Positions 4,192-26,967 of a DNA stretch of 64,000 nucleotides are shown in pieces. This DNA comes from Rhodospirillales bacterium. GTDB lineage: Bacteria; Pseudomonadota; Alphaproteobacteria; Rhodospirillales; Defluviicoccaceae. The DNA is taken from the NCBI GenBank assembly GCA_007695045.1, contig REEP01000056.1:1-64000 (forward strand), given 5' to 3'. The notes below the pieces were generated by a model. The model was given only the letters and a program-made list of their open reading frames with translations, did not search any database and was not told where the DNA came from. The translations under genes were made by a program, and so were the position numbers. Each line of letters begins with the position of its first letter. Within the stretch, counting starts at the first letter, position 1.

Positions 4192-4692
4192 ATGGTCAAT
4201 GTCTTGTTCGTCTGTCTCGGCAACATCTGCCGGTCGCCGGCGGCGGAAGGGATGTTGCGGGCGCTGATCGAGCGCGAGGGCCTGATCGGCACCGTCACCG
4301 TGGACAGCGCCGCCACCCATCCGTTCAACATCGGCCGGCCCCCGGACCCGCGGGCGCAGGCGGTCCTGCATGACCGTGGCATCGACATCCGCGATTTCCG
4401 CGCCCGCCAGATCAAGGAAACGGATTTCCGCCGGTTCGATTACATCATCGCCATGGACCGGGACAACCTCGACGACCTGCGCCACGCCTGCCCGGCGGAT
4501 GCGCGGGCGCGGCTGCACCGGCTGCTGGAATTCGTGCCGGACGGCCGCCAGGAGGACGTGGCCGACCCGTACCACGGCCGTGATGGCGACTTCCTGGTGA
4601 TGGCCGATCAGATCGAGATCGGCACCCGCCACCTGCTCCGCCACATCGTGACCCATGACCTTCGCCACGGCGCGGGCCGGAGCGCCGACTGA
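4192..4692 (+). CDS. Low-molecular-weight protein tyrosine phosphatase
   Basis: This encodes 166 residues starting at MVNVLFVCLGNICRS; the reading frame is open further upstream, but the conserved fold begins here. The P-loop C-x5-R-S uses Cys8 as nucleophile and Arg14. The general acid loop DPYHG is at 125-129. Such cytoplasmic phosphatases act on phosphotyrosine of bacterial tyrosine kinases or on small phosphoesters; no kinase gene is nearby. The 3' end overlaps the next gene by 38 nt if the HAD gene starts at its first ATG, so the two are probably cotranscribed. Confidence 0.92.
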   Translation: MVNVLFVCLGNICRSPAAEGMLRALIEREGLIGTVTVDSAATHPFNIGRPPDPRAQAVLHDRGIDIRDFRARQIKETDFRRFDYIIAMDRDNLDDLRHACPADARARLHRLLEFVPDGRQEDVADPYHGRDGDFLVMADQIEIGTRHLLRHIVTHDLRHGAGRSAD

Positions 4693-5371
4693 GGTGGGGA
4701 CGGCGCTCGTCATCTTCGATTGCGACGGGGTGCTGGTGGACAGCGAGCCGATCGCGAGCCGCGTTCTGGCGGACCTGCTCACCGAGATCGGCTTCCCGAT
4801 GACGCCGGAGGGCGCGTTGGACCGCTACACCGGCATCACCCTGCCCGCGGTACTGGCCAAGGTGGAGGCGGAATGGGGACGGCCGCTGCCGCATGATTTC
4901 CTGGATCAGCTGCGGGCCCGGGACCAAGCGGCGTTTCGCGCCGAGCTTCAGCCGGTGCCCGGGGTCATGGCCGTGCTGGATGCCCTGGATGCGGCGGGTG
5001 TGCGGAAGTGCGTCGCGTCCTCGGGCGCGCCCGAGAAGCTTCGCCTCACTCTCACCGTCACCGGGCTGTGGGACCGCTTCGCCCCGCATATCTATAGCGC
5101 GGCCGCGGTCGAGCGCGGCAAGCCGTGGCCGGACCTGTTCCTGCATGCGGCCGCGGCGATGGCGGTGCCGGCGGAAGCGTGCCTGGTGGTGGAGGACAGC
5201 ACCGCCGGCATCCAGGCGGCCCGCGCCGCCGGCATGCGGGTGATCGGGTTCGCCGGCGGCGGCCATGCCGGACCGGATTATGCCCGCTCGCTCAGGCAGG
5301 CCGGCGCGGACACGGTGGTTCCCGACATGCCGGCGCTCGGCCGCCTGCTCGCGGCGGCGGCGCCGGCCTGA
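4655..5371 (+). CDS. HAD-superfamily phosphatase (subfamily IA, beta-phosphoglucomutase/Gph-like)
   Basis: This encodes 238 residues. Motif I is FDCDGVLVDSE (Asp22 nucleophile, Asp24), followed by a helical cap. Motif II is CVASSGAP, motif III has Lys in ERGKPWPDLFL, and motif IV is CLVVEDSTAGIQAARAAG. These mark subfamily IA enzymes that hydrolyse small phosphorylated metabolites. The ATG at 4655 overlaps the phosphatase gene by 38 nt. A GTG at about residue 14 (VGTALVIFDCD) would remove the overlap and cannot be excluded. The substrate is not predictable from the sequence. Confidence 0.85.
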   Translation: MTFATARAGAPTEVGTALVIFDCDGVLVDSEPIASRVLADLLTEIGFPMTPEGALDRYTGITLPAVLAKVEAEWGRPLPHDFLDQLRARDQAAFRAELQPVPGVMAVLDALDAAGVRKCVASSGAPEKLRLTLTVTGLWDRFAPHIYSAAAVERGKPWPDLFLHAAAAMAVPAEACLVVEDSTAGIQAARAAGMRVIGFAGGGHAGPDYARSLRQAGADTVVPDMPALGRLLAAAAPA

Positions 5372-5410
5372 GCCGGCCGGCTGCCGCCGGGCGTAGCCCG
5401 TCGCACGCAC

Positions 5411-12560: not shown

Positions 12561-12932
12561 ATGAAGCAACTCTCGATGATGTTTCACGTCGTGGTGGAAT
12601 TCCTGGTTCCGTTCCTCGCACCTTTTGCCGTTCTGCTCGGTATTGCGTTGGCGGTCTTGTCGGTGCAGTACCTCGTTCGCGGCGGACCCGTCTTCGCCGC
12701 TCGACCCTTCGTGATCGCGTGGGGCGTGGCGGCGGCCGTCGCGGCCTTGGCGTTCTTCCTGGTTCCCATGTGGACCCAGGGTGCCCTGGCCGATTTGGTG
12801 ACCTGGTATGACTGGCTCGCCGCTGCGGGTCTCGCGACGGCGGGTGCCACGGCATTCGTCATCGCCTATCCGCTGGCCCTGCTTCTCCTCACCGGCGGCA
12901 GCGGCGGGAGCGGCGAACCGGCCACGGCCTGA
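12561..12932 (+). CDS. Small membrane protein of unknown function, coupled to the SQR-like gene
   Basis: This encodes 123 residues from an ATG with AAGGAG 8 nt upstream; a GTG nine bases earlier overlaps that site and is less likely. Three to four hydrophobic segments are visible (about 9-34, 46-71, 78-106). A glycine/serine tail GGSGGSGEPATA closes the protein. I do not recognise the family. Its position directly behind an exported SQR-like flavoprotein suggests it may anchor it or connect it to the quinone pool, which is an inference only. Confidence 0.75.
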   Translation: MKQLSMMFHVVVEFLVPFLAPFAVLLGIALAVLSVQYLVRGGPVFAARPFVIAWGVAAAVAALAFFLVPMWTQGALADLVTWYDWLAAAGLATAGATAFVIAYPLALLLLTGGSGGSGEPATA

Positions 12933-12982
12933 GCCGGCCGCGCACGACATCAGGGGGCGGTGCCGCCGACGTGCCGGCTCAG
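12929..12982. terminator. Bidirectional hairpin shared by two convergent genes
   Basis: CTGAGCCGGC (12929-12938) pairs perfectly with GCCGGCTCAG (12973-12982). Each arm contains the stop codon of one of the converging genes. A G/C-rich loop lies between; there is no T-run, so termination strength is uncertain. Confidence 0.5.
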
Positions 12983-13683
12983 GCGTCGGCGGCATTGCGC
13001 TCACGCAGGTGCGGGATCATGCGCTTGAGCCGAGGGGGTGCGTAGCGCTCGAACGCGCGTGGCAATGCCACCATCGAGGCCACCACGACGCCGCCCGCGA
13101 TGGCGGCCCAGACGGGCGATATTACCAGAACGCTGCCAAGGGTGACGTAGACGACCGTCATCGGCAGCATGCCGATCAGGGTGGCGACGGCGAAGGCCCG
13201 CAAGGACATCACCGTCAAGCCGGCCCCGTAACTCACCAGCGCGAATGAGACGACGGGGATCAGTCGGCTGATCAGGACCACCCAGAACAGCATGCGGTCG
13301 CTGCAATCCCGGCACAGCACCGCATGACCGCCGACCAGACGCGCCACCATGTCGCGGGCGGCGAAGCGGGCGATGGCGAAGGCGAGCATCGCCCCGATCA
13401 GGGCACTGCCGGCGGCGAGGGCAGTGCCCAGAACCGGCCCGTACACCAGCCCCGCCGTCACCGTGATCGGCACGGTCGGCAACGGCCCCAGGACCACCGC
13501 CAGCACCATCAAGGCCGCCAGCAGAACCGGGCCCCAGGCGCCGCTGTCGGCGATGCGTTCGGCCAGCGCCGCCGGCGTCAGGGCTGCGGGCCAGCCCGTC
13601 ACCAGCACAACGGCGAAGGCGATGGCAAGCGCGCCGGCGACCGCGGCAGGCCGGGCCCAGCGCTGAAGCCGCGTCCGCTTCAC
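12979..13683 (-). CDS. TVP38/TMEM64 (VTT domain) family membrane protein
   Basis: This encodes 234 residues from a GTG at 13681-13683. A TTG at 13701 is also in frame but lies only 2 nt from the tRNA end, so its ribosome site would fall in the tRNA. Five to six membrane segments surround the VTT core: VLGPLPTVPITVTAGLVYG, a small-residue helix (ALAAGSALIGAMLAFAIAR), and SRLIPVVSFALVSYGAG. The family is linked to lipid scrambling or transport, and members often lie near sulfide or selenium metabolism genes. It converges on the SQR-like unit through a shared hairpin. Confidence 0.85.
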   Translation of the reverse strand: MKRTRLQRWARPAAVAGALAIAFAVVLVTGWPAALTPAALAERIADSGAWGPVLLAALMVLAVVLGPLPTVPITVTAGLVYGPVLGTALAAGSALIGAMLAFAIARFAARDMVARLVGGHAVLCRDCSDRMLFWVVLISRLIPVVSFALVSYGAGLTVMSLRAFAVATLIGMLPMTVVYVTLGSVLVISPVWAAIAGGVVVASMVALPRAFERYAPPRLKRMIPHLRERNAADA

Positions 13684-13703
13684 GTAGGAAGATGCCCCCA
13701 AGA

Positions 13704-13780
13704 TGGTGGGCCCGGCAGGACTCGAACCTGCAACCAGACCGTTATGAGCGGCCGGCTCTAACCAGTTGAGCTACGGGCCC
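13704..13780 (-). tRNA. tRNA with CAU anticodon, probably tRNA-Ile2
   Basis: The minus strand gives a full cloverleaf of 77 nt. The acceptor is GGGCCCG, the D arm GCTC...GAGC, the anticodon loop CTCATAA (anticodon CAT), the T arm GCAGG-TTCGAGT-CCTGC, and CCA is encoded. C4 and C5 in the acceptor stem are the features by which TilS distinguishes tRNA-Ile2 from elongator Met, and the position next to rpoD fits. TilS, encoded at 58.5 kb, would change C34 to lysidine so the tRNA reads AUA. Met identity is less likely. Confidence 0.9.
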
Positions 13781-13873
13781 GAGGTGGTGACAGGCGCACA
13801 ACCGGCCGGACGTGTTCGGTTTCCCGAACCGACGGCGCGCCGGCGGGCGCGGTCCCGGCAATCAGTCGTGCGA

Positions 13874-16012
<2,139 letters not shown>

Positions 16013-16112
16013 GTTAACCGCTGCTCCTCATCCACCCGCCCGGGCGCCAAGCCTTCCATACCATGCGTCTGCCTCCGGTATCGTCGCGGGTCCGGTCATG
16101 ACCCGTTGTCAC

Positions 16113-18008
16113 CTAGTCGGACGGTTCCCGCCCATCCGAATCGGGCCCGTCGCGAACCGCCGGCACGGCTTCCGCGTGGGCCTTCAACGCCTGAAAGATG
16201 TGGTACGCTTCCGCCGACGGATCATCGGCAAGCGCTTGCTTACGGTGTTGCAGTTCGGGTCGCATCCGGTCTCGGCGGTACAAGGCGAAGGTCTCTTCCC
16301 ATCCCGCTAAGGCTGTTTCCAAGGCGACACCCTGACGTGCAAAAAAGGCATGCGCTCCCAGGCGGCCATCAAGCACACACGCCAAGGATGCCGAGAATCC
16401 GCATCGCCTGAGGTGGCTTTGCAGCCTTTCCGAGTCAAGGGCTTCGCCCGTTGCCGCCATGTCCAAAATCCCCTGGCGCAGGGCATCCAGGGCGGGGTCG
16501 GTGAACCCGATGGTTCCCAGCCGCTCTCCCACCGTGTCAAGGAGATCGGGTTGAACGAGTACGACCGCAAGCAGAATCGCCTCCCGCCGCCAGGTCACCG
16601 TCTGCGCTGGGCTTTCGGGCTGTCCGGGCTCGATTCCGACCATTGACGCGGCCGCCGGTCGGCGAGGTCCCCTGCCCAGTTCTTGGCCCGTTACCTTGCC
16701 TGAACCGAAGGACCGGCCCGCCGGCCCGCCGCGATCCCGCTGTCGGCCGAGGTCGCGAATGCGGGCGCGGAACCCCCACAACAGGTGCGACCGTAAAGAC
16801 ACATCCGCGACAGAATCGACATGGCGGCGAAGCCGGGACTCCAGCGCGGCGCGATCCTCGGGGGTGCGCACCGGCCGGTCGCGGGTCTCGCTCCAGAACA
16901 GCATGTCCGAAAGGGACAGGGCATCGGCCATCGCGCTTTTGAGGAACTGCGCCGGATAGCGCCGGGCAACACCGTCCGGATCATCCCCCGTGTCGGTGGC
17001 GATGAACGCGAACTTCAGCCCGAAGCCGGCTTTGAGGATCGGCAGCACCCGTTCCGCCGCGCGTGCCGCGGCCCGCACGCCGGCCGCATCGGGATCGAAC
17101 AGGATCACCGGTTCCGGCACCACCCGCCACAACTCGGCGATCTGCTCCGGCGTCAGGGCGGTGCCGAGGGGGGCGACCGCATGGGCAAGGCCGGCGCGAT
17201 GCAGGCCGATCACGTCCATGTAGCCTTCGGCGACAATCAGGGTGCCGGCCTGGCGCGCCGCCGGCGCCGCCAGATGCATGCCGTACACCATCCGTCCCTT
17301 GTGGAAGAGGGCTGTTTCCGGGGAATTGAGGTATTTCGGCTCCCCCTCACCCAAGATGCGGCCGCCGAAGGCGACCACCTGGCCACGGCGGTCCATAATG
17401 GGGAACATCACGCGGTTGCGGAACCGGTCGTACGGCGCCCGTCCGCCCTCGTCCGGCGCCACCAGCAGCCCGGCCGCCACCATCGCCGCATCGTCGATCC
17501 CGTCGCGGCCAAGCGCGTCGCGCAATCCGTTGCGCCCGGCGGGGGCGAACCCCAGCCTGAAATGCTCGATCAGGTCGTCGCTGACGCCGCGACGCTCAAG
17601 GTAGGCCCGGGCTTCAGCCCCCGCGGGCGCCTTCAAGGTTCGTGCGAACCAGCGGGCGGCCGCTTCTACCACGTCGGCCAGCCCGCGACGGCGTTCGGCG
17701 GATTGGCGCGCTTCCGGGCTTTCCTGCGGAACCTCCATGCCGAGCTCGGCGGCCAGGCGCTCAACCGCCTCGGGAAAGCTCAGCCCTTCGGTCTTCATCA
17801 GGAAGTCGAACGCACTGCCATGGGCACCGCAGCCGAAGCAGTGATAGTGGTCGTCGAACACGGTGAACGACGGCGTCTTCTCATTGTGGAACGGACACAG
17901 GCCGACCCGGTCGCGGCCGCGCCGGATCAGCCGCACCCGCTTGCCGATCAGGGCCGCGAGGTCCACCCGAGCACGCAATGTGTCCAGAAAGTCGCTCGGC
18001 AGTGCCAT
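16113..18008 (-). CDS. dnaG: DNA primase
   Basis: This encodes 631 residues starting at MALPSDFLDTLRARVDL. The frame is open further upstream, but that extension is Arg/Gly-rich and unconserved. The CHC2 zinc site is Cys38, His41, Cys57, Cys60. A TOPRIM domain follows with VAEGYMDVI and the FDPDAAGVRAA acidic motif. The C-terminal part, which binds the DnaB helicase, is less conserved. The enzyme makes RNA primers for replication. rpoD follows on the same strand. The yqeY gene often found near dnaG is not seen here. Confidence 0.97.
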   Translation of the reverse strand: MALPSDFLDTLRARVDLAALIGKRVRLIRRGRDRVGLCPFHNEKTPSFTVFDDHYHCFGCGAHGSAFDFLMKTEGLSFPEAVERLAAELGMEVPQESPEARQSAERRRGLADVVEAAARWFARTLKAPAGAEARAYLERRGVSDDLIEHFRLGFAPAGRNGLRDALGRDGIDDAAMVAAGLLVAPDEGGRAPYDRFRNRVMFPIMDRRGQVVAFGGRILGEGEPKYLNSPETALFHKGRMVYGMHLAAPAARQAGTLIVAEGYMDVIGLHRAGLAHAVAPLGTALTPEQIAELWRVVPEPVILFDPDAAGVRAAARAAERVLPILKAGFGLKFAFIATDTGDDPDGVARRYPAQFLKSAMADALSLSDMLFWSETRDRPVRTPEDRAALESRLRRHVDSVADVSLRSHLLWGFRARIRDLGRQRDRGGPAGRSFGSGKVTGQELGRGPRRPAAASMVGIEPGQPESPAQTVTWRREAILLAVVLVQPDLLDTVGERLGTIGFTDPALDALRQGILDMAATGEALDSERLQSHLRRCGFSASLACVLDGRLGAHAFFARQGVALETALAGWEETFALYRRDRMRPELQHRKQALADDPSAEAYHIFQALKAHAEAVPAVRDGPDSDGREPSD

Positions 18009-18383
18009 CGACCCGTCAAGCCCCCCCCCACAATCGTCCGCGGCCGGGCGTCGGGATCCGGGACGGATCGGTCGAGCGACGGCCGAGGCCGATTTCCCAG
18101 ACGCTGCACCACGCTCCAGCGAAACCCAACGGCCGAAATGCGGCAGCCCGCCACGCCGTACGGTCTCAAGCGGAGACACCCAAGATGACATCTCGAGCGC
18201 CTCACGCCAAGGGACCGCTCCGCGCGCCGCGTCCCTCGCCGCGGGCGGACGGGCGGACCCAATTCGCCTCGCTGTTTACCCAAACAAGGAACCGTGTTAG
18301 CATTTTACTGTTGGTCTGCTTGTGTAGTCTCCGAGTCCGTGCCGGGCGGAACAGTTTAGTGCTGCTCTAATCTGGAGGTGTTA
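18009..18383. other. Divergent intergenic region between dnaG and a membrane protein gene
   Basis: 375 nt with no supported gene. It must hold the dnaG-rpoD promoter (leftward) and the promoter of the gene at 18384 (rightward). The right half (18270-18383) is AT-richer. TCTGGAGG at 18371-18378 is the ribosome binding site of the next gene. I could not assign -35/-10 pairs with confidence. Confidence 0.35.
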
Positions 18384-19259
18384 TTGGATCACGCTGCCGA
18401 CCTTGGGACGCCAACGCCAGAGGCAGTTGAGTTTTATACGCGGCTGGCGTATGAATTTGGCCCCTTTTTGTTTGCCATACTTTTTATGCTGCTCATTACG
18501 TACATGGCACATCGCTTCTATCAAGGTGTCAGAAAGCGCACGTCACCAAAGCCAAGCGTCAAAGAACGAGCGGCATATCGGTTTTTTTTCATTTCCAGCT
18601 TTTCGTTCGGCATGGTCTTGGTTGTGGCTTCCGTCGGCTGGTGGTTTTATTCTCACCTGAGGCCGATACATGCGTACGAGATCGTCATCGTCGAGATACC
18701 CGGAAGTGCATTTGTGACTGCACCTGCATTTGACCGCGTCTACCATCGCAAAATAATTCACGAAAATACCAGAAATATATCCCTGTATATGCTCATCATG
18801 CTCGATCGGCCGTTCACTCCGGGAGAACCGATCGGTCTGGACATTTTCCTCCCGCAGGACATGTCGGGAGATATGCTGACCGCCGGCGGCGTGGGACGTC
18901 CTCATCAGCAATCGGTTTTACATAACGGTACGACGAGGGCTCGGTATCGTCTTGCCGATCATCGTTTAATCGATATCTCCGAGTCAGATGTCCGTGAGCC
19001 GGAGAGGCAGAATTTCTACGCGAAGGTTGTCAATCATGCCGACCGCATTCGGAATTTCGTCCGGTGGACTTTCGCGGCCCAAGCCTCGGCCGTGGCGGAC
19101 GACCGCAACGTTGCACCGCGTCGACTCATTATGTCTCAGCGGACAAGCAATCAATGCGTCACGCCCGTGGGCACGTGCATACTGCCGCAGTCCGGCCCGG
19201 TGGGCACGCCATGCTGGTGCAACACCCCGACCGGCCCGGTGAGGGGAACTCTGGAGTGA
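18384..19259 (+). CDS. Two-TM membrane protein with a C-terminal cysteine motif, unknown function
   Basis: This encodes 291 residues from a TTG placed 5 nt after TCTGGAGG; a GTG at 18378 overlaps that site. Hydrophobic helices lie at about 23-41 (FGPFLFAILFMLLITYMAH) and 65-85 (FSFGMVLVVASVGWWFY), flanked by basic residues. A soluble domain of about 180 residues follows. The tail is C-x6-C-x11-C-x-C (NQCVTPVGTC ... GTPCWCNTPTGPVRG), a compact Cys/Gly/Pro motif I have the impression occurs at the ends of other proteobacterial proteins, without a known role. Base composition and codon use are clearly less GC-rich than neighbours, which suggests transfer. The gene stands alone between dnaG and carA. 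Confidence 0.75.
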   Translation: MDHAADLGTPTPEAVEFYTRLAYEFGPFLFAILFMLLITYMAHRFYQGVRKRTSPKPSVKERAAYRFFFISSFSFGMVLVVASVGWWFYSHLRPIHAYEIVIVEIPGSAFVTAPAFDRVYHRKIIHENTRNISLYMLIMLDRPFTPGEPIGLDIFLPQDMSGDMLTAGGVGRPHQQSVLHNGTTRARYRLADHRLIDISESDVREPERQNFYAKVVNHADRIRNFVRWTFAAQASAVADDRNVAPRRLIMSQRTSNQCVTPVGTCILPQSGPVGTPCWCNTPTGPVRGTLE

Positions 19260-19624
19260 CACGGCTGGCTTGACCCATCAATGACAGGGTCAATGGCGCT
19301 TGGCCTGTGACCCGAATCGGGCTGATGGCGGCGAATCCGCCGTGCGCGGCCGGGCATCCGGGGTTGCGGCCGGGAAGGAAGGAATGCCGGCATCCCGCCC
19401 CTGCCGTCGACCCTCCGGTCGACCCTCCAGATCCAACCCCTGCGGGGGCTGCGATTCGGAACGCCACCGGCACCATTCCGGAGCTCGCTTGACGCGCGGC
19501 CGTTGCCTGCGTAATCAGTTTCCGAACGATCTAAACGATCTAAATGTGGGAGTGCCGCGTGTGATGGCATCCGGTCCCGGCCGGCGCCAGCGGTGCCAGT
19601 AGGATAATCGGAACCGCGATCCAT
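19260..19624. other. Intergenic region upstream of carA
   Basis: 365 nt with no gene. It contains an inverted repeat TTGACCC/GGGTCAA (19270-19293) just after the preceding stop, a 12-nt tandem duplication GTCGACCCTCC(G/A) (19406-19429) and a 9-nt tandem duplication AACGATCTA (19525-19542). A possible carA promoter is described separately. Confidence 0.4.
19489..19517 (+). promoter_or_regulatory. Possible carA promoter
   Basis: TTGACG (19489-19494), a 17-nt spacer, and TAATCA (19512-19517) lie about 105 nt before the carA ATG. The -35 is good and the -10 is poor. Confidence 0.3.
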
Positions 19625-20839
19625 ATGAGTGCCATGAGTGAAACGGAAGCGGTCACCATGGACCGCGCCCATCCTTCGGTGCGCCCCCCGGAGGCGACTG
19701 CTGCCCTGGTCCTGGCCGATGGCCGGGTTTTCTGGGGGCGCGGGGCCGGCGCCGTCGGCGTGGCGATCGGGGAGGTCTGCTTTAATACCGCAACCAGCGG
19801 GTATCAGGAGATCCTGACCGACCCGTCTTACGCCGGGCAGATCATCACCTTCACCTTTCCACACATCGGCAACGTCGGCACCAACCCGGAAGACATCGAG
19901 GCGATGACTCCGGCGGCACGCGGCTGCGTGCTCAGGATGCCGATCACCGACCCGGCCAACTGGCGGGCGACCCAGCACCTGGATGCCTGGCTGCGCGCGC
20001 ACAACCTGGTGGCCCTGACCGGTGTCGATACCCGGGCGCTGACCCGACGCATCCGCGACGGCGGCGCCCCCAACGGCGCCCTGATCCATGATCCCGACGG
20101 GAACATCGACGTGGACGCGCTGCGCTTCATGGCGGAACGGTGGCCCGGGCTGGAGGGCACCGACCTCGCCAAGGAGGTCATGTGCCGTCAGACCTATCAA
20201 TGGGACGAGACACGCTGGACGGTCGAAGCCGGTTACGGACGTCAGGTCGAGCCGCAATTTCACGTGGTCGCGGTCGACTACGGCGCCAAACGCAACATCC
20301 TCCGCTGCCTGGCCGCCGCCGGCTGCCGTGTCACCGTGGTGCCAGGGACGGCGAGCGCCGAGGACATTCTGCGCCATGCGCCGGACGGCGTTTTTCTCTC
20401 CAACGGGCCGGGCGATCCGGCCGCCACCGGGGTTTACGCGGTGCCGGCCATCCAGGCGCTGCTGGACCGCCGGATCCCCACCTTCGGCATCTGCCTTGGC
20501 CACCAACTGCTCGCGCTCGCCATCGGCGCCAAGACTTATAAGATGCATCTCGGCCACCGTGGCGCCAACCAGCCGGTGCTGGACCTGGAGACCGGCCGGG
20601 TTGAGATCACCAGCCAGAACCATGGCTTTGGGGTCGACCCGGCAACCCTGCCGACGGGCGTGGTGGAGACGCACCGATCGCTGTTCGACGGCAGCAACGA
20701 GGGGCTGCGGATCGACGGGCTGCCGGCGTTCTCGGTGCAATACCATCCGGAGGCATCGCCGGGACCGGAGGACAGCCATTACCTGTTCCACCGCTTCGTC
20801 GACATGATGGCGAGAACCGCGGCTGCAACGTCCCTCTAG
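19625..20839 (+). CDS. carA: Carbamoyl-phosphate synthase small (glutaminase) subunit
   Basis: This 404-residue subunit hydrolyses glutamine and channels ammonia to CarB for arginine and pyrimidine synthesis. The N-terminal domain shows GVAIGEVCFNTATSGYQEIL. The class I glutaminase domain has nucleophile Cys290 in FGICLGHQ and the His/Glu pair in QYHPEASPGP. The length is normal with a short extra N-terminal tail. carB is not adjacent here; the next gene, 15 nt on, encodes a channel. Confidence 0.97.
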   Translation: MSAMSETEAVTMDRAHPSVRPPEATAALVLADGRVFWGRGAGAVGVAIGEVCFNTATSGYQEILTDPSYAGQIITFTFPHIGNVGTNPEDIEAMTPAARGCVLRMPITDPANWRATQHLDAWLRAHNLVALTGVDTRALTRRIRDGGAPNGALIHDPDGNIDVDALRFMAERWPGLEGTDLAKEVMCRQTYQWDETRWTVEAGYGRQVEPQFHVVAVDYGAKRNILRCLAAAGCRVTVVPGTASAEDILRHAPDGVFLSNGPGDPAATGVYAVPAIQALLDRRIPTFGICLGHQLLALAIGAKTYKMHLGHRGANQPVLDLETGRVEITSQNHGFGVDPATLPTGVVETHRSLFDGSNEGLRIDGLPAFSVQYHPEASPGPEDSHYLFHRFVDMMARTAAATSL

Positions 20840-20854
20840 AACGGGTCGGGAACC

Positions 20855-23230
20855 GTGCTCGCGGCCATGAGACAGGGTGAAGCCGCGCCAGCCGTGGCCG
20901 CCCTTCTCACCGGCCTGCTTTGGGTGACGCTGGGGGTGACGCTGGGGTTGATGCTGGCGTGGGCCCTGGTCGTGGGCTCAGCCGGGACGGCCGCGGCGGC
21001 TCCGGCCGCAGCCGTGTCGGATGATGCGCCCCTGCCGAGCCTGCCGGAAGGCTTGACCCCGGAGGCGGTGCGCGACTTGGTTTCTCGCCTGTCGGATGCC
21101 GAGGCGCGGGCCTTGCTGGTCCGCACGCTGGATGGTCTGGCCGAGCGACCGGCGGTTGCCCAAGCGCCGCCACCAGGTCTCGTCGGCGGCCTGGCCGATG
21201 CCACGACACGGTTGCGCACGACACTCAGCGAGGTGCGCGCATCTTTGCCGGAGGTGGCCGAAGCCCCAGCCAAGGTCGCAGACAGCCTGAGGGACCCGAC
21301 CGGGGCATCGCGGCTGATTCCCACCCTGGTCCTCCTCGCCGGCATGCTGGCGGTCGGGGGGCTGGGCGAAGCCCTGTTCCGGCGGCTTTTTTCGGGAATG
21401 GGCGCACAACCGCGCTCCGGCCCTGAACCATCGGCGCTGGAAAAACTCGAAATCCTGGGGCTTCGGCTGGTCATCGACCTGTTGGCCCTCGCCGCCTTCG
21501 GCGGGGTGGCGGCGGTGGTCCTGTTCATGTTCCATCCGGACCACTCGACGGCCCACCAGCTCATCGTCCTGGCGTTCTGGGCCGTCATGTTCCCACGCCT
21601 CGGTGCCGCCGGCGCCCGGTTCGCGGTGGCGCCGGAAGACCGGAGCTTGCGCCTGCCGGACATCGATGACGCGGCGGCACGGATGATCGTGCGTCGGGTG
21701 ATGGTGGTGACGGCGCTGGTGACCATCGGCGTCCTGACCGGCGACTTCTTTCGCGGCGTCGGCGTGAGCCCCGCCTTTCTGTTCATCCAGGCAAGCGTGA
21801 CCTCGTTCCTCGTTGTTGCGCTGCTGGTGGCCATGGTGTGGCGCGACCGCGCGGTGGTGGCGAGGCTCATCTCCAGCAGCGACGGTCCGGCGCCCGCGCA
21901 GCCCAGCCGGGTCAACCAGGTGATCGCCGCCAACTGGCACATCCTTGTGACGTGCTTCCTCATCGGCATCTGGCTTGCCGCGTTCGTGTCCACGGCGCTG
22001 ACCGGTGAGCGCATGGCAACCCCCATGATCGTCAGCCTCGGCCTACTGGCCGCCGTTCCGGTGGCGGACTGGATTCTCCGCGCGGTGATCACGCACATGT
22101 TCGGCCTCGACGTCCCGGGTGCGACAGACAACCGCGCGATTGACGGCGCGCTGTCGCCGATCCCGGCCCCGGCCGCGGAGACGGGAGATCGGCTCCGCAC
22201 CCGCACGGCCTACCGCGACGTGGTCGTTCGCAACATCAGGGTCGTGCTGGCTGTCATCGCGGCGATCCTCCTGGCGCGGGTCTGGGAGGTGGATCTGCAC
22301 GCCGCCGCCGCCGGCGGCATCGGCGAGACCCTGGCGAGTGCTCTTTTCACCATTGTGGTTTCGTTGATCCTGGCTTCCGCCGCCTGGGGCATCATCCGGG
22401 TGGCCATTGCCAACGCCGCGGGCGCGCCAGAGGACGCGGCCGAGGCCAGCGGCGACATGGGCGGCACCGGCGGATCGCGCTTGCAGACCATGGTCCCGCT
22501 GCTGGGCAGGTTCATGCTGGGAGCGATCGCGGTGATCGTCGCCATGGTGATCCTGTCGGCGTTGGGCGTGAATATCGGCCCCCTGATCGCCGGTGCCGGC
22601 GTGGTCGGCATCGCCGTGGGCTTCGGTGCCCAGACCCTGGTCAAGGACATCCTGAGCGGCGTGTTCTTCCTGGCCGACGATGCTTTCCGGGTCGGCGAAT
22701 ACATTCAGATCGGCACCGCGCGCGGGACGGTGGAGCATATCTCCGTCCGGTCGCTGCGACTGCGCCACCACAACGGCCCGCTCAACACGGTTCCGTTCGG
22801 CGAAATCCGCCATCTGACCAACTTCAGCCGCGACTGGGCGATCATGAAGCTGGAGCTGCGCCTGCCATTCGATACCGACCTGGAAAAGGTCAGGAAGCTC
22901 ATCAAGAAGGTCGGCCAGGAACTGACGGAGAATCCGGAGCTTGGGCCGCAGTTTCTGCAGCCGCTCAAGTCCCAGGGCGTCAACCGCATGGACGATTCCG
23001 CGTTCATCCTCAGGGTCAAGTTCATGGCGCGGCCGGGCCAGCAGTTCACCCTGCGGCGGGAGGTGTTCCGCCGTATCCAGGAGGCGTTTGCCCACAACGG
23101 CATCCAGTTCGCCCCGCGCCGGGTGATCGTCGACGCGCCCACGGCGCTGTCCGGGGGCGCCGCCGCGGCCGCGGCCGAGGCCATGAGCCGGGACGACGCC
23201 GCCGACCAGAAGGTGCCGGACACACCCTGA
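20855..23230 (+). CDS. Large MscS-family mechanosensitive channel
   Basis: This encodes 791 residues from a GTG; an ATG 12 nt later is an alternative. About ten to eleven hydrophobic segments precede the conserved MscS core. The pore helix is VGIAVGFGAQTLVKDILSG, followed by the beta domain (EYIQIGTARGTVEHISVRS, GPLNTVPFGEIRHLTNFSRD) and the C-terminal cytoplasmic domain. The extra N-terminal helices place it with the large MscM/YbdG/MscK-like forms that open under osmotic downshock. A 12-nt tandem duplication (20922-20945) repeats VTLG in the first helix. It may be cotranscribed with carA (15 nt gap), which is unusual. Confidence 0.92.
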   Translation: MLAAMRQGEAAPAVAALLTGLLWVTLGVTLGLMLAWALVVGSAGTAAAAPAAAVSDDAPLPSLPEGLTPEAVRDLVSRLSDAEARALLVRTLDGLAERPAVAQAPPPGLVGGLADATTRLRTTLSEVRASLPEVAEAPAKVADSLRDPTGASRLIPTLVLLAGMLAVGGLGEALFRRLFSGMGAQPRSGPEPSALEKLEILGLRLVIDLLALAAFGGVAAVVLFMFHPDHSTAHQLIVLAFWAVMFPRLGAAGARFAVAPEDRSLRLPDIDDAAARMIVRRVMVVTALVTIGVLTGDFFRGVGVSPAFLFIQASVTSFLVVALLVAMVWRDRAVVARLISSSDGPAPAQPSRVNQVIAANWHILVTCFLIGIWLAAFVSTALTGERMATPMIVSLGLLAAVPVADWILRAVITHMFGLDVPGATDNRAIDGALSPIPAPAAETGDRLRTRTAYRDVVVRNIRVVLAVIAAILLARVWEVDLHAAAAGGIGETLASALFTIVVSLILASAAWGIIRVAIANAAGAPEDAAEASGDMGGTGGSRLQTMVPLLGRFMLGAIAVIVAMVILSALGVNIGPLIAGAGVVGIAVGFGAQTLVKDILSGVFFLADDAFRVGEYIQIGTARGTVEHISVRSLRLRHHNGPLNTVPFGEIRHLTNFSRDWAIMKLELRLPFDTDLEKVRKLIKKVGQELTENPELGPQFLQPLKSQGVNRMDDSAFILRVKFMARPGQQFTLRREVFRRIQEAFAHNGIQFAPRRVIVDAPTALSGGAAAAAAEAMSRDDAADQKVPDTP

Positions 23231-23375
23231 GACCGGGCGGCGGCCGGCGGCGACGCCGTGGCGGCCGGCCGCGCGGGAGCTTGATCGGGACCGTTCACCG
23301 GGGAAACCCATTTATGCTGGCTCGCGGGTGCCTGTTTTGCTACAAGTAAGGGAAAGTCATCGACGTGATGCTGCC

Positions 23376-25019
23376 ATGATCAACGCCTCAGTCCATCTTG
23401 GTTTCTTTCCAAAGCAGGTCTTTGCAACCGTAGCGTTGGTCTTCACGATCTTTTTACCATGGGCCGAGGCCACGGCGAGTTCTGTCGAACAGAGCCTGGC
23501 GGCCGCGATCACGGCGCGCGAGCCCGACTTGAAGCGGGGCCCCGGCGCCATCGCGGCGGACGACATGCGCGCGGTTTACGCCAGCCGTGGCTTCCGTCCC
23601 CTGTGGGTGGACCGGGACGGGCTCACCGCGGCGGGACAGGCGCTGGAGGCGGTGCTGGACAGCGCCGCCGAGGATGGCCTCGACCCGGCCCGCTATGCGC
23701 TGCTGCCGGCCGGCCTCCCGGGAACGCCGGGCGGCATTGCCGAGGCCGAGCTCGACGCAACCCTGATGCTGCTGCGCTTTGCCAAAGACTTGGCCACCGG
23801 CCGGCCGGCCTTGCGCCGGCAGGCGCCCGAACATCACATCGAGGCTCCCACGCTCGATCTGCCGGGCGTGCTGGCGGCGGCGGCGGCGGCGCCCGACGTC
23901 GGCGCCTACCTCCGGAGCCTGGCACCGCCGCATCCGGCCTATCAGCGGCTGCGCGCCGCCCTGGCCGAACACCGCGCGCGGGCGGCCGACGGTGCGGCAT
24001 GGCCGGCATTTCCCGACGGGCCCACCCTCCGTCGCGGCGACAGCGACGAGCGGGTACGCCTGCTCAGGGATGTTCTGGCGCGCACCGGCGATGGCGGCCC
24101 GGCGACGATGGCATTGCAGCCGGCACTCTTCGATGGCGCCCTGGAGGATGCGGTGACGGCGTTTCAGGAACGCCACGGCCTGACCCCCGACGGCGTCGTC
24201 GGGCCGAAAACCCGTGCCGCCCTGGATGTCTCTCTCGCCGCCCGGATCCGCCAGATCGAGATCAACATGGAGCGCTGGCGCTGGATGCCGCGCGACCTGG
24301 GAGAGCCCCATGTCCTCGTGAATATGGCCGGCTTCGAGCTGAGCATGGTGGAGGGCGGCGACGAGGTTTTGGGCATGCGCGTGGTCGTGGGTCTGCCCTA
24401 CCGCAGCACCCCGGTATTCAGCGGCAAAATCACCTACCTCGAGTTCAATCCATACTGGAATATTCCGCACAGCATCGCTACCAAGGATATGCTGCCCCGG
24501 GTGCAGCAGGACCCCAGCTACTTCGACGCCCAGGGCATCCGGGTGTTCACCGGCTGGGGCTCGGAGGCGCTGGAACTGGACCCGTGGATGATCGACTGGT
24601 GGGCATTCAGCCGGGGTAATTTCCCGTTCCGGCTGCGCCAGGACCCGGGACCGAAGAATGCCCTCGGCCGCGTCAAGTTCATGTTCCCCAACCGCTTCGC
24701 CGTCTACCTGCACGACACACCCTCGCCCGAGTTGTTCCGGCGCGCGGTGCGAACCTTCAGCTCCGGCTGCATCCGGGTGGAGAAGCCGGCAGACTTGGCC
24801 CACCGCCTGCTCGCCCATAACCGCGGCTGGTCCCCGGAGCGCATCGCCGAGACGATGCAGGGCGGGCCGCGCCGAATCGTCACCCTGAATCGCCCCGTCC
24901 CCGTCCATCTCACCTACCTGACCGCCTGGTCGAGCGCTGATGGCACGGTCCATTTCCGCGATGACATCTATGGCCGGGATGCCGTTCTTTCCAACGCGTT
25001 AGTGGCCCGCTCGGGTTAA
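23376..25019 (+). CDS. L,D-transpeptidase of the YcbB (LdtD) type
   Basis: This encodes 547 residues starting at MINASVHLGFFPKQVF, whose first 30 residues look like a signal peptide ending near EATASS. A scaffold domain follows, then a peptidoglycan-binding domain (ERHGLTPDGVVGPKTRAALD) and the catalytic YkuD domain with HDTPSPELF and Cys465 in SSGCIRV. In the periplasm such enzymes make 3-3 cross-links in peptidoglycan or attach proteins to it. SD is weak (AAGGGAAAG about 20 nt upstream). The DUF882 protein gene downstream fits a cell-wall pair. Confidence 0.93.
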   Translation: MINASVHLGFFPKQVFATVALVFTIFLPWAEATASSVEQSLAAAITAREPDLKRGPGAIAADDMRAVYASRGFRPLWVDRDGLTAAGQALEAVLDSAAEDGLDPARYALLPAGLPGTPGGIAEAELDATLMLLRFAKDLATGRPALRRQAPEHHIEAPTLDLPGVLAAAAAAPDVGAYLRSLAPPHPAYQRLRAALAEHRARAADGAAWPAFPDGPTLRRGDSDERVRLLRDVLARTGDGGPATMALQPALFDGALEDAVTAFQERHGLTPDGVVGPKTRAALDVSLAARIRQIEINMERWRWMPRDLGEPHVLVNMAGFELSMVEGGDEVLGMRVVVGLPYRSTPVFSGKITYLEFNPYWNIPHSIATKDMLPRVQQDPSYFDAQGIRVFTGWGSEALELDPWMIDWWAFSRGNFPFRLRQDPGPKNALGRVKFMFPNRFAVYLHDTPSPELFRRAVRTFSSGCIRVEKPADLAHRLLAHNRGWSPERIAETMQGGPRRIVTLNRPVPVHLTYLTAWSSADGTVHFRDDIYGRDAVLSNALVARSG

Positions 25020-25059
25020 CGAAACAGTCAAAATTCAGCCCTATAAATGCTGCAGTGTC

Positions 25060-25137
25060 TCAACGCTTGACCGTTGAGCACGTCCCTGGGCAGAAAACCC
25101 TCAGGGAGGAAATCCCTCAATCTTGGCGAAAAGCCAA
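25060..25137 (+). other. Structured leader with competing hairpins
   Basis: Between the L,D-transpeptidase and DUF882 genes are TCAACG/CGTTGA (25060-25077), two overlapping and mutually exclusive stems (CCCTG 25084 with CAGGG 25102; AGGGA 25103 with TCCCT 25113), and TTGGC/GCCAA (25123-25137) just before the ribosome binding site. This could be an attenuator-like leader or chance. Confidence 0.35.
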
Positions 25138-25155
25138 AGGGAAAGGAGATCCGCT

Positions 25156-25728
25156 GTGGCAGAAGGCCAACAGAGCACGCTAGTTTCACGTCGTCATTTC
25201 CTCGGTTTCGGCATTGCCGGCATTGCCGGTCTCACCACCCTCTCACCCCTCTCCGCTCTGGCCAGTGCTCCCGCCGTCCATGAACGTGCACTGGCTTTCC
25301 AGAATCTGCACACCGGCGAATCGATCAAGACCGTCTATTGGAGCCGCGCCGGTTATATTCCCGAAGGGCTGAAAGAGATCAATTACGTCCTGCGGGATCA
25401 CCGGACCGATGACGTGAAGGTTATCGATCCCGGCCTGCTCGACTATCTGTTCGAGATGCGCCGACATCTGGGCACCGCCCGGCCGTTCGAGGTGCTTTCG
25501 GCCTACCGCTCGCCCAGAACCAATGCCGCGCTGGCCCAGCGCAGCCGCGGCGTGGCCCATAACAGCCTGCATGTGCGCGGCCAGGCGGTGGACATCCGCA
25601 TGAGCGGCATCGGTTCGCGGGCGCTGGCCCGCCTTGCAAAACAACTCCAGGCCGGCGGCGTCGGCTACTACCCGCGCTCCAACTTCGTGCACCTGGACGT
25701 GGGCCGGGTGCGCTCCTGGGGGATTTGA
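25156..25728 (+). CDS. DUF882/YcbK-like murein peptidase (M15-related), Tat-exported
   Basis: This encodes 190 residues from a GTG with AAGGAG 7 nt upstream; an in-frame TTG at 25123 lies inside a hairpin. A twin-arginine signal (SRRHFLGFG) precedes a hydrophobic stretch ending at ALA. The DUF882 domain shows SAYRSPRTN, HNSLHVRGQAVDIRM and the metal-ligand pattern with FVHLDVG, as in D-Ala-D-Ala metallopeptidases. It likely trims peptidoglycan in the periplasm. This gene pairs with the preceding L,D-transpeptidase, the same pairing as ycbB-ycbK. Confidence 0.9.
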   Translation: MAEGQQSTLVSRRHFLGFGIAGIAGLTTLSPLSALASAPAVHERALAFQNLHTGESIKTVYWSRAGYIPEGLKEINYVLRDHRTDDVKVIDPGLLDYLFEMRRHLGTARPFEVLSAYRSPRTNAALAQRSRGVAHNSLHVRGQAVDIRMSGIGSRALARLAKQLQAGGVGYYPRSNFVHLDVGRVRSWGI

Positions 25729-25932
25729 GGTACCGGCCCGGAGACGGGGCGGCGGCGGGCCGGCCCTGAGCGGGTTCATTGGGTACCGGGTTGCCGGCCG
25801 GCTCGACCGCAACGGGTCGATCGGAAGAGATTGACCGGACGGAAGCCGACGGGTTTTCTGGCGCCCGCGATCCGGGGTGCGGCAGTGGTGCCGCCCATTC
25901 CGGAGCGCCGGTAACGGAGTGCCCGGGCCCCG

Positions 25933-26967
25933 ATGCGCATTGACGATTTCGATTTCGAGCTGCCGGCGGCGGCGATCGCCCAGCGGCCGGTGCAACCGCG
26001 GGATGCCGCGCGCCTGCTTGACGTGGGCGAGGGCCTGACGGACCGGGTGGTGCGCGACCTGCCGGCCCTGCTCCGGCCCGGCGACTGCCTGGTGGTCAAC
26101 GACACCAAGGTGATCCCCGCCCGCCTGCCCGGCCGGCGTGGCAGCGTGGCTTTGGAGATCACGCTGCTGGATGAAACGGCGCCCGGGACGTGGCGCTGCC
26201 TGGTGCGGCGCGCGCGCCGGCTCAAGGTTGGCCAGCGGGTCGACATCGCCCGGGGTTTCAGCGCCGAGGTCGCCGGCAAGGACGACGAGGGGGCCGTGCT
26301 GCTGGCCTTCGACCGGACCGGTGATGCGCTGATGGACGCGATCGAGCGCCATGGCACGGCGCCCTTGCCGCCTTATATCCGCCGCCCGGGCCTGCCCGAT
26401 GCCCGGGACCGCCGCGACTACCAGACCCTGTTCGCGGCCCGGCCGGGCGCGGTTGCAGCCCCCACCGCCGGGCTGCACTTCACGCCCGCACTGCTGGCAG
26501 CCCTGGACGCGCGCGGGGTGCACCGGGTGCGCGTGACCCTGCATGTGGGCGCCGGGACCTTCCTTCCCGTCAAGACGACGGCGGTGGCCGATCACGCCAT
26601 GCACCGGGAATGGGGCGAGATCACCGCCGCGGCGGCCGAGGCCATCAACGCGGCCCATGCCGCCGGCGGCCGGGTGGTGGCGGTGGGCACCACGTCGCTC
26701 CGGCTGCTGGAAACGGCGGCGGGCGCCGACGGGCGGCTCCTGCCGTTCCAGGGCGACACCGACCTGTTCATCGTGCCGGGCTTCCGCTTCCGCATCGCCG
26801 ACATGCTGCTGACCAACTTCCACCTGCCGCGCTCGACCCTGTTCATGCTGGTGTGTGCGTTCGCCGGAACGGAACGGATGAAAGCCGCCTACGCCCACGC
26901 CATCAAGGCCGGTTACCGCTTCTATTCCTACGGCGACGGCTGCCTCCTGCGCCGTGAAGCGGGCTGA
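25933..26967 (+). CDS. queA: S-adenosylmethionine:tRNA ribosyltransferase-isomerase
   Basis: This 344-residue enzyme transfers and rearranges the ribosyl part of SAM to preQ1 at tRNA position 34, forming epoxyqueuosine. Family signatures are [55 protein letters not shown] and [15 protein letters not shown]. The length is normal. The usual partner tgt is not immediately downstream; a 727-nt gene-poor stretch follows instead. Confidence 0.97.

Follow-up and report, generated by a model that had tools for sequence, protein, structure and literature searches.

Gene frame and predicted membrane topology

Between dnaG and carA, the window (the whole stretch of 64,000 nucleotides that was analysed) carries an intact open reading frame for a two-helix membrane protein, the features of which are collected in Table 1. 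The frame and its TTG start had been proposed in the first-pass annotation, made from the letters of the DNA, and the frame is indeed present. An in-frame GTG at 18378 is a possible alternative start; because the GGAGG sequence lies 5 nt ahead of the TTG and is overlapped by the GTG, the TTG at 18384 is the better start. The tail pattern C-x6-C-x11-C-x-C of the same annotation was likewise found, and all four Cys residues of the 291-residue protein are located within its last 37 residues.

Table 1. Features of the dnaG–carA interval, in window positions.
Feature	Position	Strand	Remarks
Stretch with no alignable equivalent in the sister species	18008..19674	.	Sister: the corresponding alignment ends lie 382 bp apart
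Shine-Dalgarno-like GGAGG	18374..18378	+	5 nt upstream of the TTG at 18384
Gene for a two-helix membrane protein with C-terminal four-Cys module	18384..19259	+	Intact ORF, 291 aa, TTG start
Predicted TM helix 1, ~residues 20-45, periplasm to cytoplasm	18441..18518	+	Kyte-Doolittle peak 1.96
Basic loop, predicted cytoplasmic	18519..18578	+	Residues 45-66: 7 K/R, 1 D/E
Predicted TM helix 2, ~residues 66-88, cytoplasm to periplasm	18579..18647	+	Kyte-Doolittle peak 2.04
Orphan part, predicted periplasmic, Cys-free	18648..19145	+	Modelled as strands plus one helix, at low confidence
37-residue four-Cys module, reaching the stop codon	19146..19256	+	C-x6-C-x8-G-x2-C-x-C-x4-G-x3-G-x3-stop

Hydropathy analysis agreed with the earlier call of a membrane protein, predicting two helices with peaks at residues 21-39 and 67-85, and no 19-residue stretch after residue 88 had a mean hydropathy above 1.4. 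Both predicted helices are contained in helices of the AlphaFold2 model (14-54 and 61-94 in GTG numbering, which adds 2 residues). The first 25 residues include 1 basic and 5 acidic residues, and the positive-inside rule was the basis for placing the basic loop in the cytoplasm. Together, the hydropathy segments and the charge distribution predict that the protein adopts an N-out/C-out topology with a periplasmic tail; the extracytoplasmic location of the window module is thus a prediction from hydropathy and charge alone. Neither the gene nor its tail matched Pfam or NCBIfam at E ≤ 10, for the gene, PHROGs and PADLOC likewise gave nothing at E ≤ 1, and comparison of the protein with PDB sequences gave nothing below E = 0.31.

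The dnaG–carA interval in relatives

The interval was compared with that of G010, a sister species of the same genus whose carA protein is 97% identical. The distance between the alignment ends is 1.67 kb in the window (18007 to 19675) versus 382 bp in G010, and the G010 gap showed no good alignment to the window gene (the best between the flanks had E = 0.034 over 16 bases). Among 10 other genomes of the family, nine gave no match to the window protein at E ≤ 1, and in G008 a match at E = 0.32 fell in a frame without the Cys pattern. The tail profile matched one of these 10 genomes, G009, at E = 0.001, over columns 15-37 only and without C4 and C11, and this match was excluded from the module count. 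Moreover, a search of 198 further genomes from the order with residues 1-256 (GTG numbering) turned up nothing at E ≤ 0.01. The window species therefore carries a new gene in the dnaG–carA gap that the relatives tested lack, as the first-pass annotation had anticipated. That annotation had also named absence from sister strains, together with lack of expression, as grounds against its reading, and of these the absence was found in the sister species.

In all five other-genus genomes of the family that were read, yqeY (PF09424, E 1.8e-41 or better) lies inside the dnaG–carA interval. These five (read at loci L054-L059) represent three genera; they were drawn from the family genomes of other genera that gave a carA match, eight in all. 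In the window species (window 18008-19624) and its sister, yqeY is absent between the two genes and, given its presence in the five relatives, the window's genus appears to have lost it at this site. Elsewhere along the alignment, identity to the sister genome was 88% over 12834-15186, 78% over 15427-18007 (dnaG included) and 87% over 19675-26949, reaching 98% over 19675-21000, at carA; the alignment of the window with contig C100 stops at 26949.

The gene had been described as AT-richer than its neighbours. This holds for the body of the gene (GC 0.526, GC3 0.579; compared with a GC of 0.672 for the window and 0.679 for dnaG, and a GC3 of 0.839 for carA) but not for the tail, which is host-like (GC 0.685, GC3 0.838). 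The GC3 difference between tail and body, 37 codons versus 254, was significant in Fisher's test (p = 0.002). The AT-richness stops ahead of the tail, and because GC3 climbs already over the codons preceding it, any fusion point between body and tail is putative. We infer a horizontal origin for the gene. Clear insertion ends were sought, and the sole candidate was a 21-nt direct repeat of 86% identity (18035-18055 and 19341-19361), possibly due to chance. An origin as a plasmid or phage gene was also considered and rejected: tblastn of the protein against the plasmid and phage collections gave no match at E ≤ 10. A blastn search of 18040-19600 against the phages gave none at E ≤ 0.1. A candidate second copy in the same genome, the C29 match, was discarded, as it runs antisense in a long frame that we take to be phosphoenolpyruvate carboxylase.

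An orphan gene inserted in the dnaG–carA gap, then joined to a module copy through a chance fusion and now decaying and functionless in this host, could account for several of these observations, namely the absence from the 10 other family genomes save for two weak matches without the full Cys pattern, the lack of relatives for its body in the order sample, the deviating composition, and the GC3 difference between body and tail. Nevertheless, this seems very improbable, since the frame of 291 codons is intact and has GGAGG and a start, its two TM segments are clean and accompanied by a basic loop, and all seven invariant residues of the module described below are kept.

A portable four-Cys module and its partner proteins

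Related tails were found by a peptide scan at four loci of the genome collection, in Azotobacter chroococcum, A. vinelandii, Achromobacter kerstersii and, in divergent form, a Neomegalonema MAG (L006); the last matches columns 4-27 only and was left out of the count. Further copies were obtained by profile search in genomes sampled from the window's own order, class and phylum and by scanning IMG/VR contigs. In total, 23 gapless copies were identified in 17 proteins, the window's included. The copies are homologous and share a gapless 37-residue frame with the invariant columns C4, C11, G20, C23, C25, G30 and G34, all seven of which are kept in the window module. One alignment holds 21 of the 23 copies (an earlier one had 18 rows), and the two remaining copies were fitted by eye. 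With the window row left out, the profile scored the window ORF at 52.5 bits (E = 1.8e-15), compared with 10.7 bits for the best of 2000 tail shuffles and 7.2 bits for the next window ORF. Judged by sequence, the tail is a real portable C-terminal domain. The first-pass annotation had proposed a profile search with the tail, in which failure to find it elsewhere was to count against its reading; such a search did find the tail elsewhere.

Three genome samples were searched with the profile. In the 297-genome sample, 20 genomes matched at E ≤ 0.01 and at least four were accepted (the window's own, G107, G096 and G117), 16 of the 20 being dropped, G009 among them; in the 385-genome sample, five matched at E ≤ 0.001 and at least three were accepted (own, G476 and G366); in the 398-genome sample, six matched and at least two were accepted (own and G912). 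All these counts are minimum values, since scoring was confined in many genomes to 25 candidates (297-genome sample) or 19 (the other two). Each accepted genome had one match, and the dropped rows showed an incomplete Cys pattern or short or stop-broken frames. The module was found in none of 48 genomes of another class, in a search run without a positive control. Within the family of G107, only G107 itself carried the module among 48 genomes, and within the family of G476 it was present in 3 of 4. In IMG/VR, the bare Cys/Gly pattern occurred in at least 120 stretches, and among the matches listed three score as modules at E ≤ 1e-6 (L072, L169 and L096, the contig of L064). Requiring a stop-like codon after the pattern gave 13 stretches, including three modules by eye (L072, L169 and L202, the contig of L033), and the remainder were Cys-rich low-complexity sequences or broken frames.

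The module sits at the C-terminus. Of the 17 proteins, 14 end at position 37, with the stop codon three residues past G34; the window protein is one of them and has no residue beyond it. L005, L032 and L064 continue for 67-74 Cys-containing residues after the module; in these proteins a second, different Cys stretch (CGCWG...C...C) replaces modules 2 and 3. Proteins carry between one and three copies, and three tandem copies are present in L003, L004 and L033. A. vinelandii is among the bacteria with three tandem copies.

The partner sequences are diverse. HExxH was recognized by eye in 11 of the 17 proteins, mostly of the eCIS_core type, a share that is biased upwards because the peptide scan from the eCIS_core alignment used an HELTH pattern. 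Membership of eCIS_core/DUF4157 (PF13699) was assigned by Pfam for L003, L004, L005, L169 and L040 and by alignment for L032, L033 and L064. L014, without a convincing Pfam match, and its near copy L015 have GHEMVH, and L072 has HECGHH, matches a PHROG metalloprotease (5.9e-8) and reaches only E = 0.04 with Pfam M48. The small secreted proteins L013, L034, L192 and L193 consist of little else than the module, L035 is a Gly/Tyr-rich secreted protein, and the window membrane protein is the sixth non-HExxH case. Although it shares the 37-residue module with the eCIS_core proteins of Azotobacter, Achromobacter and the viral contigs, which have 1-3 copies, it lacks HExxH and any eCIS_core match (no Pfam family at E ≤ 10) and instead has the predicted two-helix anchor.

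Some of these genes have noteworthy surroundings. The L032 eCIS_core gene (4296-5387), with one module, lies downstream of what we take to be a P2-like phage gene D homologue, presumably with smpB nearby, and its position is a typical place for cargo genes at a prophage end. On the IMG/VR contig L033 (2446-3870 and 4224-5438), the three-module eCIS_core gene adjoins a frame that presumably resembles a tyrosine integrase; the three-module segment had no tblastn match in the plasmid and phage collections at E ≤ 1. In the viral contig L072 (867-2346), a gene for a predicted membrane protein is located directly upstream of the HECGHH module gene, and the two perhaps form a pair.

An N-terminal hydrophobic segment was present in 15 of 15 proteins tested (KD15 1.72-3.01), and 12 of 44 long window ORFs used as a control reached KD15 1.6 or more, a crude contrast because starts were picked by eye and the control ORFs are mechanical. 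This set of 15 contains L006, which is not among the 17 counted carriers, but not L192, L193 or the window protein. Because all the tested proteins begin with such a segment, the module is probably extracytoplasmic in all carriers. DUF4157 is known as an HExxH marker domain of injected toxins, with an unclear role (PMC11297309). An injected role would be less obvious for the module-bearing DUF4157 proteins, because they have N-terminal hydrophobic segments of the export type. The C-terminal metallopeptidase of VgrG2b acts as a periplasmic toxin, with an immunity protein that is DsbA-dependent and has partly conserved Cys, and the part of that paper covered here does not mention a tail like that of the module carriers (PMC6899460).

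The placement of the tail would also be expected of a C-terminal recognition or sorting signal without a membrane helix, to which a dedicated factor for export, anchoring or processing would respond. In 14 of 17 proteins of different bodies the stop codon directly follows the module, all 15 tested carriers look exported, and the tail alone is common to these bodies. We nevertheless regard such a signal as unlikely, given that three proteins hold tandem copies internally and three others continue for 67-74 residues. Sorting systems usually have many clients, whereas one match per genome was found in at least four of 297, three of 385 and two of 398 genomes, the window's own included. MYXO-CTERM tags are tripartite, like GlyGly-CTERM tags. 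The latter combine a motif, a hydrophobic region and positive residues (PMC6219818), and MYXO-CTERM has an invariant Cys (PMC11980579). The module resembles both in being a short C-terminal unit on exported proteins but differs in being a four-Cys predicted beta unit that has no helix and is sometimes tandem. Unlike GlyGly-CTERM (PMC6219818), no TM helix or basic end follows the motif, and the window protein simply ends in RGTLE.

Alternatively, the module might be a new kind of C-terminal tag of bacteria and phages, disulfide-locked and helix-free, that engages a common envelope partner, with the module-only secreted proteins acting as competitors. This idea, which we consider quite improbable, covers the flush placement on unrelated exported proteins, many of them with HExxH.

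Fold, cysteine chemistry and proposed role

In the AlphaFold2 model, the window module has strands at residues 256-261, 266-274, 278-283 and 286-292 (GTG numbering), with a mean pLDDT of 81 over residues 251-260, rising to 96-97 over 261-293, and is thus predicted to be a four-stranded beta unit. The whole model is less certain (mean pLDDT 63.3, pTM 0.38; mostly <50 between the helices and the module), its input alignment comprising 15 rows for the tail only. The first module of a modelled eCIS_core protein (mean pLDDT 51.1) showed the same strand pattern, the module blocks scoring ~48-65. Searching the full model against PDB and BFVD yielded nothing at E ≤ 0.001. The VIA fold rows lie mainly over residues 8-100, the helices, and because these filled the match list, the fold searches barely tested the module. 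The sole fold row over the tail, 2gfa (double tudor), had Z 2.4 and rmsd 11.0 and was unusable. With regard to SH3b, four strands were seen in the window-module model, the fold searches barely reaching the tail.

Comparison of the module with solved structures gave no confident match, and a PDB sequence search with the eCIS_core alignment gave none at E ≤ 1. The best hit (E = 4.3) was a weak likeness to Defensin-1 (PDB 5nce), along C-x-T...G-x-C...G-x-x-C-x-C. CSalpha-beta defensins have a helix-sheet fold with three or four disulfides, and the module has only four Cys and is modelled as strands without a helix; the hit was taken as chance.

The role of the four Cys was evaluated from their spacing and conservation. 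A zinc ribbon or c-type heme site was rejected, in agreement with the first-pass annotation: the spacing C-x6-C-x11-C-x-C is wrong, and CxxC, CxxCH and His are all absent from the module. Concerning the Cys pairing, the eCIS_core protein L066 from an IMG/VR contig is informative. Five module positions are retained in its tail (C4, G20, C23, G30 and G34), whereas C11 and C25 are both missing, which suggests the disulfide pairs C4–C23 and C11–C25; L066 is a single case, its tail being absent from the module-profile matches at E ≤ 1 and placed via its eCIS_core partner. One exact pattern for two-Cys tails found no more in IMG/VR; of 289 genomes of the class, two contained the pattern, in sequences that do not resemble modules.

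A metal, disulfide or lipid-binding unit had been proposed for the tail. Binding of Zn, Cu or Fe-S by the four Cys in the periplasm could draw on their invariance, including the C-x-C pair, since C-x-C occurs in copper sites. This appears distinctly unlikely, however, as the window module has no His and no CxxC pair, two of the four Cys are gone from the L066 tail, and the predicted compartment is oxidising. Of the earlier proposals, a disulfide unit fits best, because the tail is predicted to be periplasmic, its relatives have export-type N-termini and L066 lacks C11 and C25. The module Cys would accordingly be expected to become oxidised in the periplasm.

Taken together, the reading that we favour, and hold to be reasonably probable, is that the module is an extracytoplasmic, disulfide-locked C-terminal beta mini-domain, probably serving as a binding or stabilising cap, which is here held at the membrane. 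The window gene would encode a protein that crosses the inner membrane with two helices, its N-terminus lying outside and its C-terminal part in the periplasm, and the last 37 residues would be one copy of the portable mini-domain. After export, the four Cys would be oxidised, most likely as C4–C23 and C11–C25, and the disulfides would lock the four-stranded beta unit, which may stabilise or cap the C-terminus and offer a small binding surface. With its module held at the membrane face, the window protein is probably a membrane-anchored periplasmic binding or docking protein, the binding role of the module being one that we infer.

The disulfide-stabilised extracytoplasmic mini-domain is already familiar as a kind. 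In the open-licence literature searched, no account was found of the module family, of the way it sits flush at the C-terminus or of the variety of its partners: the peptide strings VGTPCWC, GTPCWCN and PVGTPCWC did not occur, and no description of the module was recognised there among reports on DUF4157/eCIS, C-terminal cysteine-rich proteins or CTERM. The module therefore represents a small domain without a name in the family databases searched. It links uncharacterised, probably exported proteins whose bodies otherwise differ, including HExxH eCIS_core proteins, products of viral-contig genes, small secreted proteins and a membrane orphan, and the 37-column profile would let annotators find such proteins. 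Furthermore, the strict C-terminal placement raises the question of what reads or binds the tail.
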